In this document: positions 5,749-47,185 of the stretch, in pieces | How the letters are laid out: each line of letters opens with the position of its first letter | How positions within the stretch are numbered: position 1 is the first letter of the stretch | NCBI RefSeq assembly: GCF_007671685.1 | Contig: NZ_VCNL01000003.1 | Coordinates: 124,001 to 188,000 of the forward strand | Reading direction: 5' to 3' | Length of the DNA: 64,000 nt | Source: Halorubrum salsamenti | GTDB lineage: Archaea > Halobacteriota > Halobacteria > Halobacteriales > Haloferacaceae | Made by a program: the position numbers and the translations under genes | Notes under the pieces: generated by a model | What the model was told of the DNA's origin: nothing | The model's input: only the letters and a program-made list of their open reading frames with translations | Database searches by the model: none

Positions 5749-6055
5749 GCGGTGGCGCGTGCCGCCGAGCGCCCCCAGGGCGCGAGGTGCATGCGCGAGG
5801 GACGCCGCGAGCGCTTTTAAGCGCGAGCGGCGAGGCTGGGGAAGCGTGAGGTGCGGGGAGGTGCGGTTGGGTGGGACTCAAAGGGGCAGCCGTGAGGCGG
5901 GCGCAGGCGATGTAAGCACTGCAAGGAGCGAGCAACGCGAGCGACTGAAGCGCGCAACGAGCGTGCGCCCGCCTCACGGCTGGGGCTTTGGCGGTGTTCA
6001 CGGTCGATCCGCCGTCGACTGCTTATAAGCGAGCGGCTGGGCCTTTGAAAGTGGC
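5749..6055 (+). repeat. Dispersed intergenic repeat, copy A
   Basis: This copy fills most of the 398-base gap between pantoate kinase and srp54. The head begins GCGGTGGCGCGTGCC, followed by a hairpin (GAGCGCCC/GGGCGCGAG) enclosed by an outer stem (GCGTGCC/GGTGCATGCGC). The middle carries GAGGCTGGGGA, GCGTGAGGTGCGG and GGGACTCAAAGGGGCAG. The tail is CTGGGGCTTTG at 5980-5990, followed by a unit with GCTTATAAGC at 6021-6030 and a second CTGGGCCTTTGAA. The same modules occur in four other copies in the window. Short Arg-rich ORFs here are by-products of the head sequence. Confidence 0.8.
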
Positions 6056-7597: not shown

Positions 7598-7711
7598 GCT
7601 CCGAAGCTCCAGTCGATCGCTTATAAGCGATTGCTGGTAGATCGGTGATGAACGCCTCCAAAGTCCCTGTCACTCGCTTATAAGCTGTCGACGGAGGACC
7701 GTCCGTGAAGA
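7598..7711 (-). repeat. Tandem ~58-nt units with TTATAAGC motif
   Basis: Two adjoining units repeat with a period of about 58 nt. Each runs on the minus strand as a CTTTGGAGG-like block, a short variable stretch, a GATCGxC-like block and a CTTATAAGC palindrome (7620-7628 and 7678-7685). A third CCTCCAAAGCCCCAG block at 7712-7726 begins repeat copy B. The same unit follows the tail of copies A, C and D. The palindrome resembles an archaeal TATA box, but no start codon follows at promoter distance, so promoter function is unproven. Confidence 0.65.
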
Positions 7712-8063
7712 CCTCCAAAGCCCCAGCCGTGAGGGCTCGGTGCGGTCGTTGCGGTCCTCAGTCAGTCGCTAGCGCTCCCTCCTTGCGGTCCTTACGTCCC
7801 GCGCCTTCGCCCTCACGGCAGCGAGGCGCTTCGCGCCTCTGGCAGCCGGCGGCAGCGCCGCCGGCGACTGCCCCTTTGAGTCCCACCCCGCACGGCACCG
7901 CACAGCCTCACGCCTCCCCAGCCTCGTCACCGGCGCGGAGCGCCGGTTGCAAGCGAGAGCTTCGCTCTCGCCCTGTCGGTGGTCCTCCGCTTCGCTCCGG
8001 ACCACCGACTCCCTCGCGCGTGCACCTCGCGCCCTCCGGGCGCTCGGCGGCACGCGCCACCGC
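7712..8063 (-). repeat. Dispersed intergenic repeat, copy B (inverted)
   Basis: This is the longest copy, about 350 nt, oriented on the minus strand. The head at 8049-8063 is the complement of GCGGTGGCGCGTGCC and lies seven bases past the stop codon of the minus-strand gene at 8071. The shared blocks follow: the hairpin around 8028-8045, GCGTGAGGCTGTGCGG, GGGACTCAAAGGGGCAG and, at the other end, GCTGGGGCTTTGGAGG. Between them sit several copy-specific short inverted repeats (for example GAGCGAAGC and GGCGCGAAGCGCC types). Together with the tandem units it fills the 535-base gap after srp54. Confidence 0.8.
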
Positions 8064-8070
8064 AGACGAT

Positions 8071-8757
8071 TTATAAGGAAACGTCGGTCTCCATATCCTC
8101 GGTCGCCTCTTCGAGCCCGTCGTCGCGGGCTGTCTCGGCGTGTGAGTCCTCGATCTCGGCGTCGGTGAGGAGGTCGCGGAACTCGTCGCGGAACCGGTCG
8201 TTCGCGCGGGTGGAGGTCAGGTCCACGCGGGCGACGCGGGCGTGCTTCGCGACGACGTCGGGGTCGGCGTCGAGGGCCTCGGCGCACTCGGGGATAGAAC
8301 GTCCCTCCGCGGTCAGCTGCTTCAGGTCGTCGTACTCGAACGAGGCGTCGTCGACCTCGCGGTCGGCCTCGCGGACGAGGTGGAGGTCGAGTCGGGCGTC
8401 GCGGACGGTCGCGGGATCGACGACGGGCGGGACTCCCGAGCCGTCCCCAGCACCGGCTCCCGCCCCCTCCCCGTCCCCGTCCGCCTCCCGCTCCTCGACG
8501 AGCGCGGCCGCGATCGCTTCGTCGTCCCCCTCCTCGAAGCGGCCGCGGGCGATCCGGGCGTAGGTCGCGTCGTCGAGGTCGGTCGAGAAGTCGTACCGGT
8601 CGCGCATCGCGGCGACGAGCTCGCGGACCCGCTCGTCGACCGCCGCCTCGTCGCGGTCGGTGAGCGTCCCGCGCGACTCCGCCTGCCGCTCGGTGACCGT
8701 CTCGGACCCGGTGGTCTCGACGAAGATGTCGCGGAGCTCGGAGGTCTTCTCGTCCAT
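8071..8757 (-). CDS. Conditioned medium-induced protein 4-like
   Basis: This very acidic soluble protein has 228 residues and begins MDEKTSELRDIFVETTGSETVTERQ. Helical regions predominate: YDFSTDLDDATYARIARGRFEEGDDEAIAAAL reads as a helix pair, and a Gly/Ala/Asp linker sits near residue 95. The block LTAEGRSIPECAEALDADPDVVAKHARV looks like a helix-turn-helix. The N-terminus resembles haloarchaeal proteins annotated conditioned medium-induced protein 4. That name comes from expression data and the molecular function is unknown. The ortholog call is from memory. The stop codon overlaps a TTATAA sequence beside repeat copy B. Confidence 0.55.
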   Translation of the reverse strand: MDEKTSELRDIFVETTGSETVTERQAESRGTLTDRDEAAVDERVRELVAAMRDRYDFSTDLDDATYARIARGRFEEGDDEAIAAALVEEREADGDGEGAGAGAGDGSGVPPVVDPATVRDARLDLHLVREADREVDDASFEYDDLKQLTAEGRSIPECAEALDADPDVVAKHARVARVDLTSTRANDRFRDEFRDLLTDAEIEDSHAETARDDGLEEATEDMETDVSL

Positions 8758-25569: not shown

Positions 25570-25990
25570 GCGGTGGCGCGCGCCTGTGAGCGCCCTTCGG
25601 GCGCGAACAGCGCGCGCGAGGGAGTCGGTGGTCCGGAGCGACGCGGAGGACCACCGACGAGGTTGGGGAGGCGTGAGGTGCGGTCGGCTGGGACTCGAAG
25701 GGGCAGTCGCGATTTCCGTGAGCGAAGCGAGCGGCAAGACGGGAGACGGAGTCTCCCGGAAGGACGAAGCACGACGACGTTAGCACCGCAGCGAGGGAGC
25801 GCCAGCGACCGAGCGAGGAGCGCAACGAGTCGCGCGAGGAGCGCAACGAGTCGCGCGAGGAGCGAGGACGACCGAAGGGAGCCCTCGACTGGCGAGCGGC
25901 CGGTAGGCCGCGATCCCCTCGCGACTGGGGCTTTGGAGGTCTTTGCCGCGGAGTTGCTGGCAACGGTTTATAAGCGATCGATTGGGGCTT
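25570..25990 (+). repeat. Dispersed intergenic repeat, copy C
   Basis: The head GCGGTGGCGCGCGCC at 25570 is followed by the GAGCGCCC-TTCG-GGGCGCG hairpin, GAGGGAGTCGGTGGTCCGGA with its complement, GTTGGGGAGGCGTGAGGTGCGG and GGGACTCGAAGGGGCAG. Local additions are three near-identical GAGGAGCGCAACGAGTCGCGC units (about 25823-25866). The tail is CTGGGGCTTTGGAGG at 25924-25938, then TTTATAAGCGATCG and a second TTGGGGCTTCG. It fills most of the 635-base gap between two divergent genes, upstream of both start codons. Confidence 0.8.
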
Positions 25991-34709: not shown

Positions 34710-34848
34710 CCTTTTATAAATGGATACCGCAGAGCGGTGGTGAAATTCTCCAAACCCCAGCCTCGTCGGACCGGCGCTGTTGTGCCGGTCCGACTCCCTC
34801 GCGCGTGCACCTCGCGCCCTGCGGGCGCTCGGCGGCACGCGCCACCGC
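34710..34848 (-). repeat. Dispersed intergenic repeat, copy D (inverted, short)
   Basis: This compact copy fills the gap between the converging scpA and mtnP genes. On the minus strand the head GCGGTGGCGCGTGCC (complement at 34834-34848) is followed by the GAGCGCCC-GCAG-GGGCGCGAGG hairpin, GTGCACGCGCGAGGGAGTCGG, a copy-specific GGACCGGC...GCCGGTCC stem, GAGGCTGGGG and TTTGGAGAATTTC. A TTATAAA-containing unit follows at 34710-34740. The middle blocks found in copies A-C are missing, so it is an internally deleted or minimal version. Confidence 0.75.
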
Positions 34849-47031: not shown

Positions 47032-47185
47032 GCGGTGGCGCGTGCCACCGAGCGCCCATCGGGCGCGAGGTGCACGCGCGAGGGAGTCGCGAGGGAGCGG
47101 GCGACCGCCGGGAGCCCCGACCGAGCGACGAGGCTGGGGAGGCATGAGGTGCGGTCGCGGTGTGGGCGGCTGGGGCTTTGAAACT
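47032..47185 (+). repeat. Dispersed intergenic repeat, copy E
   Basis: Head GCGGTGGCGCGTGCC at 47032 is followed by the GAGCGCCC-ATCG-GGGCGCGAGG hairpin, GTGCACGCGCGAGGGAGTCG, GAGGCTGGGGAGGCATGAGG, TGCGGT and the tail GGCTGGGGCTTTGAAA at about 47168-47183. It lacks the GGGACTCAAAGGGGCAG block. It lies in the 372-base gap between the divergent phosphoribosyltransferase and gatB genes. The rest of that gap (47186-47302) holds no gene; TTTAGGTGA near 47270 is the probable gatB promoter. Confidence 0.78.

Follow-up and report, generated by a model that had tools for sequence, protein, structure and literature searches.

The window analyzed here, a stretch of 64,000 nucleotides from Halorubrum salsamenti, contains five copies of a dispersed repeat, all of which lie between predicted genes. 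The original prediction had located five intergenic, structured copies in both orientations and had assigned to them a common, ordered set of modules. Inspection of the sequence and a module scan recovered all five at those positions, and each is also detected by R1, a covariance model of the head-to-middle part whose training alignment included only copy 3 of the five. The complete order of modules is present in copies 1 to 3, whereas copies 4 and 5 are incomplete. The features are as follows:

5749-5991, plus strand: copy 1, full core from the head to the CTGGGGCTTTGG tail (sequence, module scan; R1 110.5 bits)
5756-5797, plus strand: arm 1 of copy 1, with P1 (5756-5761 with 5792-5797), P1b, tandem G.A pairs and the P2 hairpin (alignment columns, covariation)
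5803-5831, plus strand: arm 2 of copy 1, the variable hairpin P3, CGC type, between GAGGGA and GAGGCTGGGGA
5832-5886, plus strand: linker of copy 1, with GAGGCTGGGGA, GCGTGAGGTGCGG and GGGTGGGACTCAAAGGGG, including two of the GGGG tracts (sequence)
5887-5982, plus strand: arm 3 of copy 1, the long hairpin P4, with CAG/CTG closing and with G tracts and CAAAG/CTTTG flanking
6023-6028, no strand assigned: TTATAA inside the tail unit of copy 1 (sequence; positional excess)
7712-8063, minus strand: copy 2, full core, arms 2 and 3 with extra nested hairpins (R1 94.4 bits)
7598-7726, minus strand: tail of copy 2, three tandem units of about 57 nt, with TTATAA in two spacers (sequence, module scan)
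25570-25939, plus strand: copy 3, full core, arm 3 enlarged (R1 123.3 bits)
34749-34848, minus strand: copy 4, truncated; retains the head and the first two arms, with GAGGCTGGGG running into the tail and arm 3 lost (R1 82.6 bits)
47032-47185, plus strand: copy 5, truncated; retains the head, the first two arms, the linker and the tail, with the 5' strand of arm 3 lost (R1 77.8 bits)

The stop codon of the gene at 8071-8757 is 8 nt away from the head of copy 2, whose tandem tail has unit motifs at 7726, 7669 and 7612; comparable tandem units are seen at a Halosimplex locus (L154). The head of copy 3, earlier given as GCGGTGGCGCGTGCC, is in fact GCGGTGGCGCGCGCC. In copy 4 (read from 34848 to 34749) GAGGCTGGGG runs directly into the tail, and copy 5 is without the GGGACTCAAAGGGGCAG module, so that the third arm is gone from two of the five window copies. 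Both joints fall at GGCTGGGG, a word present in linker and tail alike, so that the truncations would be most simply explained by a deletion from one occurrence to the other. Elsewhere in the window, a 151-base tRNA match at 1142-1292 is probably an intron-containing tRNA gene. The head had also been suspected of encoding false Arg-rich proteins that databases may list as genes. Four ORFs that overlap copies 1 and 2 lack Pfam matches, and the head ORFs are spurious as far as tested; the one plasmid copy checked for a gene listing is unannotated. For annotators, Arg-rich ORFs across these elements are suspect.

Fold of the element and the selected strand

The element measures about 240 bases and consists of three hairpin arms joined by near-invariant G/A-rich linkers. 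In plus-strand order, P1 with its six pairs, an inner loop, P1b, tandem G.A pairs, the hairpin P2, GAGGGA and the hairpin P3 are followed by GAGGCTGGGGAGGYGTGAGG, a linker that hardly varies, together with TGCGGT repeats and GGGTGGGA, and then by CTCAAAG-GGGG-CAG and the long arm P4; after P4 come CTG-GGG-CTTTGGAG and the tail unit, which is tandem in some copies. In an alignment that was not fitted to the structure, 98.5% of the cells of 16 pairs contain standard pairs, and 44 cells are changed on both sides, as against 12.5 +- 2.5 in shuffles and 1-8 with the partner slid. Parsing by pattern yielded 173 distinct P4 arms, in which the first 13 pairs are almost always paired, and several show changes on both sides.

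A transition in a G-C pair yields either G.T or A.C. In P4, G.T is found in 66 cases versus 26 of A.C (p 2e-5), and the counts in P3 (15 versus 5) and P1 (108 versus 0) are skewed in the same direction. The triloops of P3 include 36 cases of GNA, and the complementary TNC is not among the 40 commonest loops listed. The excess of G.T over A.C, taken together with the GNA triloops, suggests that the plus strand is the selected single strand. DNA, too, can form stable GNA triloops (of the GCGAAGC type) and stable tandem G.A pairs. The earlier suggestion of a functional RNA is thus borne out to the extent that covariation and wobble bias point to selection on the plus-strand fold; the molecule concerned might be RNA or single-stranded DNA, which the tests used fit equally well. 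Folding is strong for either strand of a copy, at -154.8 and -126.1 kcal/mol (z -6.4 and -5.2).

Across 104 full-length copies the types of P2 and P3 show a mutual information of 1.12, versus 1.04 +- 0.07 in shuffles, and an orthologous copy in another genome (L205) carries a P3 hairpin of another type. This free assortment, along with the hairpin swap, suggests that arms are exchanged between copies. Such exchange across more than 100 copies offers a natural experiment on RNA structure.

Distribution of the family

The search of this and related genomes with a profile, which had been proposed together with the original prediction, reveals a family far larger than the five window copies. R1 detects at least 109 copies in the own genome (E <= 0.001), a number that is probably too low as 150 of 9,048 first-look candidates were scored, and it detects 128 and 104 copies in two relatives. 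BLAST with copy 1 as query yields 45 matches in the own genome, with E down to 3e-70, self-match excluded. The 20-base core motif GAGGCTGGGGAGGYGTGAGG, allowing at most one mismatch, is present in 66 of the 391 genomes scanned from the class, including all 46 Halorubrum genomes sampled (the own one among them) with 13 (G019) to 193 (G175) matches each; the reversed motif has no match in any of the 391. In these genome sets each species is represented by a single genome. Among the matches listed in named records, the family also occurs in Haloparvum, Halobellus, Halorussus and Halosimplex. It is missing from most haloarchaeal genomes, and within one other genus (g17) its copy number ranges from 0 to 87.

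The copies are concentrated on chromosomes. Contig C17 and thirteen small contigs make up 0.71 of the 3.67 Mb of the own genome, yet contain 2 of the 109 copies, and in the two relatives the largest contig carries all 150 matches listed, of 232. A core match was found in 2 of 72,556 plasmid records, and a search for viral carriage yielded neither an exact motif in viral contigs nor a phage match. No Rfam 15 family other than tRNAs was matched, either by the window at gathering score or by eight copy-bearing loci at E <= 1, and no account of the family was encountered in the literature searched, including the consulted portions of PMC3119063, PMC5018182, PMC6011602, PMC10927574 and PMC2864571. 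An 80-bp intergenic stretch of 76% GC that may have obstructed sequencing is mentioned for Hrr. lacusprofundi in the consulted part of PMC6011602. These repeats represent a large, genus-wide and apparently undescribed family of folded non-protein-coding elements in haloarchaeal chromosomes. A large share of Halorubrum intergenic DNA, nameless in Rfam and in the literature searched, is thereby named, and the model can detect it in any genome.

Transposon ends and sister cassettes

As had been noted, the element has no transposase of its own: in addition to the lack of Pfam matches in the window, ORFs over one cassette reach 106 aa at most. The proposal of a non-autonomous element is likewise supported outside the window, where some copies of this transposase-less family lie between IS5-type ends. 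By contrast, the supposed absence of a terminal repeat of known type applies to the five window copies and not to the family. Profiles of two ends, X and Y, were built solely from elements without the repeat. These match the flanks in outward orientation at 15 of the 85 own copies whose surroundings were fetched (out of 109, mostly better-scoring ones), and at 9 of 42 copies in a second species (G018, 42 of 58 model matches used); reversed controls gave 0 matches. No end was detectable on 70 of the 85 and 33 of the 42, all five window copies included.

The terminal sequence GGCTCTGTTGAAATCC and the longer ends X and Y also border elements with other contents. One of these, on a Halorubrum hochsteinianum plasmid (L388), is an IS5-family element of 1.4 kb that is complete, having both ends and the target duplication AGAAAATC; its transposase matches NCBIfam IS5_2 with 218.7 bits (cut-off 140). 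The own genome contains a full-length ORF 95% identical to this transposase, with one end found. Others include two 598-bp elements, one with a small predicted membrane protein and the duplication AAACGATC (L035, 1831-2429) and one with the duplication GGTTTTTG (L174, 1938-2536), and a 1.3-kb element with a 335-aa ORF (L169, 4105-5407). Exact 8-base duplications are present around five end pairs, including that of the IS (L388, L035, L174, L370 and L372). In the RNA-bearing elements, the complete element at L285 has the duplication GGATTTTT, matching 8/8 at a one-base offset, L343 has one matching 7/8, and comparison of the flanks of L339, L354, L031 and L131 yielded no target duplication. Near-identical copies with unrelated flanks represent moved blocks. 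These elements may form one family of mobile insertion cassettes among whose members the passenger is interchangeable.

Cassettes with IS5-type ends were seen at L035, L169, L174, L031:1624-2149, L370, L372, L385:6001-6632 and L386:7004-7490; where inspected, their cargo is a small protein gene (a predicted membrane protein, lipoprotein-like, DUF1059 or DUF6176) with no transposase. End X was located 163 times in 91 plasmid records of haloarchaea from many genera (e.g. NZ_KX906370.1, which is pR1SE2, and NZ_CP030065.1); pR1SE2 has 7 such places and pHrrPV6 has 15. An IS6 transposase beside an end on pHrrPV6 was considered as a partner and rejected, as it lies outside the end pair. In the own genome the 16-base end has 58 matches, 29 of them on contigs C17, C2, C4, C8 and C20, where 2 of the 109 cores are found. 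This rarity of the core on plasmid-like contigs where ends abound is not predicted by pure hitch-hiking.

An inner inverted repeat, GCGGGAGT/ACTCCCGC, was examined as an alternative mobile boundary. Both sides are present in 23 of the 85 own copies, one side in 12 and neither in 50; in the 32 of these 50 that could be parsed, P4 is still paired in 379 of 416 cells. Of 45 same-genus genomes, 15 are without the inner repeat, and about 60-130 cores are present in several of these 15, indicating that this boundary is not the general route by which the core spread; it was rejected for this reason and because the outer IS5-type ends explain more. In Halorussus the same head is joined to a different 3' module with a GTAGCTAGC palindrome; in this Halorussus-type version (L302-L314) TGCGGT repeats and GCAGTAGCTAGCTTC come after the head. 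This junction of the head with another 3' part suggests that the head or core may be older than, or independent of, the IS5-type ends. The Halorussus heads often form an inverted pair facing a central palindrome.

Gene context and interpretation

For the same 85 copies, with genes called by composition score, 45 gaps are convergent, 28 tandem and 12 divergent; the convergent share exceeds that among background gaps of the window (7 of 34; Fisher p 0.002). In tandem gaps the element runs against the genes in 18 cases and along them in 10 (p 0.18), and this lack of a preferred orientation speaks against a directional function for the terminator or 3' stabilizer suggested earlier. The upstream gene is co-directional for 55 of the 85, so that no fixed orientation to it was found. 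A two-sided block at the 45 convergent gene pairs is possible. Of the 85 own copies, 61 have a TTTATAA-like box near position -17 relative to the head, and 57 of 70 have one about 30 nt past the tail. We rejected these boxes as promoters of the element itself, as the G018 copies are mostly without boxes, and the inner head box, reckoned with the usual archaeal TATA-to-start distance, would start an RNA inside P1.

The gap between ffh and the 8071 gene is occupied in all three relatives that have both genes, and the gap before ffh in 2 of 8 relatives listed. In gaps shared with other species, orientation (scored by eye, with the own-genome row left out) is the same in 15 orthologs and opposite in 3, a count biased to occupied sites, as most loci were chosen for presence of the motif. 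The prevalence of the same orientation at shared sites suggests that many copies are old. In one relative (L266) a head remnant alone survives, suggesting deletion as one route of loss. Strictly conserved positions are rejected, as 23 of 86 elements have at least one adjacent gene in common with an own element, and 5 have both. The turnover of sites is mixed, with neither pure mobility nor pure conservation.

The reading that we consider probable is that of a structured RNA which is a passenger of transposase-less IS5-type cassettes, with a core that outlasts the ends and acts as a passive block in convergent gaps. The five repeats would then belong to a family of short, structured elements found throughout the genus, in which the selected form is one strand, as strand bias and covariation indicate, and would most likely be an RNA of about 240 nt. 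The element would be mobile now, or have been so until recently, carried by cassettes whose ends are of the IS5 family (GGCTCTGTTGAAATCC, 8-base duplication), and the observed ends and full IS5 element point to an IS5 transposase that might mobilize these cassettes in trans. After insertion the ends would decay, and the folded core would be kept through selection on the fold and exchange of hairpin modules, mechanisms suggested by the observed retention and assortment. In the weakest step of this scheme, copies would accumulate at the least harmful sites, above all convergent gaps, and there would probably provide a passive block or 3'-end structure for incoming transcripts. The chromosome bias and the old shared sites argue against a pure hitch-hiker; an essential host function is opposed by a distribution that is patchy and by copy numbers that vary widely. 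Against the passenger itself speak the many copies on which no end is detectable (70 of 85 own, 33 of 42 in G018), the joining of the Halorussus head to another 3' module, and the scarcity of clean 8-base duplications around RNA-bearing elements (one with an offset, one with 7/8). If this reading holds, it is an unusual case of a transposon cassette with a conserved structured RNA as passenger, and it makes testable the question of whether these RNAs are selfish or now part of chromosome function.

A host-serving intergenic structure, namely a two-sided block or 3'-end protector at convergent genes for which transposon ends are an occasional vehicle, would account for the convergent excess, the strong folds on both strands, the 15 to 3 retention of orientation, the constant occupation of the ffh/8071 gap and the near-absence from 0.71 of 3.67 Mb. 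Against it stand the absence of a preferred direction in tandem gaps and the 12 copies in divergent gaps; the range of 0 to 87 copies within g17 and the 66 positive genomes out of 391 indicate no general need, and selection against insertion into promoters would equally generate the convergent bias. We regard it as possible though on the unlikely side. We give still less weight to a new class of haloarchaeal structured RNA whose conserved GGGG tracts could close a potassium-stabilized quadruplex at molar intracellular K+, and which would be borne on interchangeable cassettes, spread as a chromosomal repeat almost universal in Halorubrum, swap whole hairpin arms between copies and perform chromosomal tasks such as insulating convergent genes.

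More improbable again is an element acting as single-stranded DNA, whose hairpins and G-rich linkers serve a transposase of the Y1/RAYT type, as in REP/BIME and PATEs, with any RNA being incidental. Its GNA triloops and tandem G.A pairs would suit DNA, and it is palindromic, intergenic and of high copy number like the PATEs, as described in the consulted portion of PMC3119063; however, its ends are inverted repeats that go together with a DDE transposase of the IS5 family and with duplications of 8 bases, which sets them apart from IS200/605 and PATEs, and the commonest pair at one P1 position is T.G (81 of 115), which is natural in RNA and weaker in DNA. The high GC and short repeated words such as TGCGGT might invite an explanation of the copies as chance look-alikes, merely GC-rich simple sequence or intrinsic terminators. 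This is refuted by E values down to 3e-70, by compensatory changes far in excess of shuffles, and by the combination of 45 BLAST matches and at least 109 model matches with no match of the reversed motif in 391 genomes, and we accord it virtually no credence.

The closest comparison of the preferred passenger reading is with MITEs and mobile insertion cassettes of the IS5 family, which likewise are transposase-less and small (about 450-650 bp when complete) and have IS5 end repeats; terminal repeats common to an autonomous IS are found here in the subset of copies listed above, outside the window, and duplications of 8 bases are exact around the IS and the protein cassettes and near-perfect around two of the RNA-bearing elements. 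The family differs from such MITEs in that a structured RNA, conserved and covarying, is the passenger, most copies lack ends while bearing the core, and hairpin modules appear to be exchanged between copies. The REP/BIME of bacteria are intergenic palindromic hairpin repeats that are present in many copies and favor the 3' ends of genes. The present element shares these traits, but is longer, with three arms and IS5-type ends. The SMR, PATE and MITE repeats of Haloquadratum walsbyi (Dyall-Smith 2011, PMC3119063) are also haloarchaeal, non-coding and present in tens to hundreds of copies with nested insertions, whereas the consulted portion of that report does not describe a conserved RNA fold for them. 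There, SMR are characterized by end repeats unlike those of known transposons and by no duplications, and PATEs, which derive from IS200/605 and have near-terminal palindromes, by the lack of inverted repeats. In contrast, the more complete copies of the present family do have inverted terminal repeats, with outer ends like those of an IS5 element; an SMR would be compatible with the inner GCGGGAGT boundary taken by itself. Candidate structured RNAs of the kind collected in Rfam 15 and in the survey of PMC2864571, the main text of which, as consulted, does not mention Halorubrum or Halobacteria, resemble this family in their compensatory changes and conserved loops.
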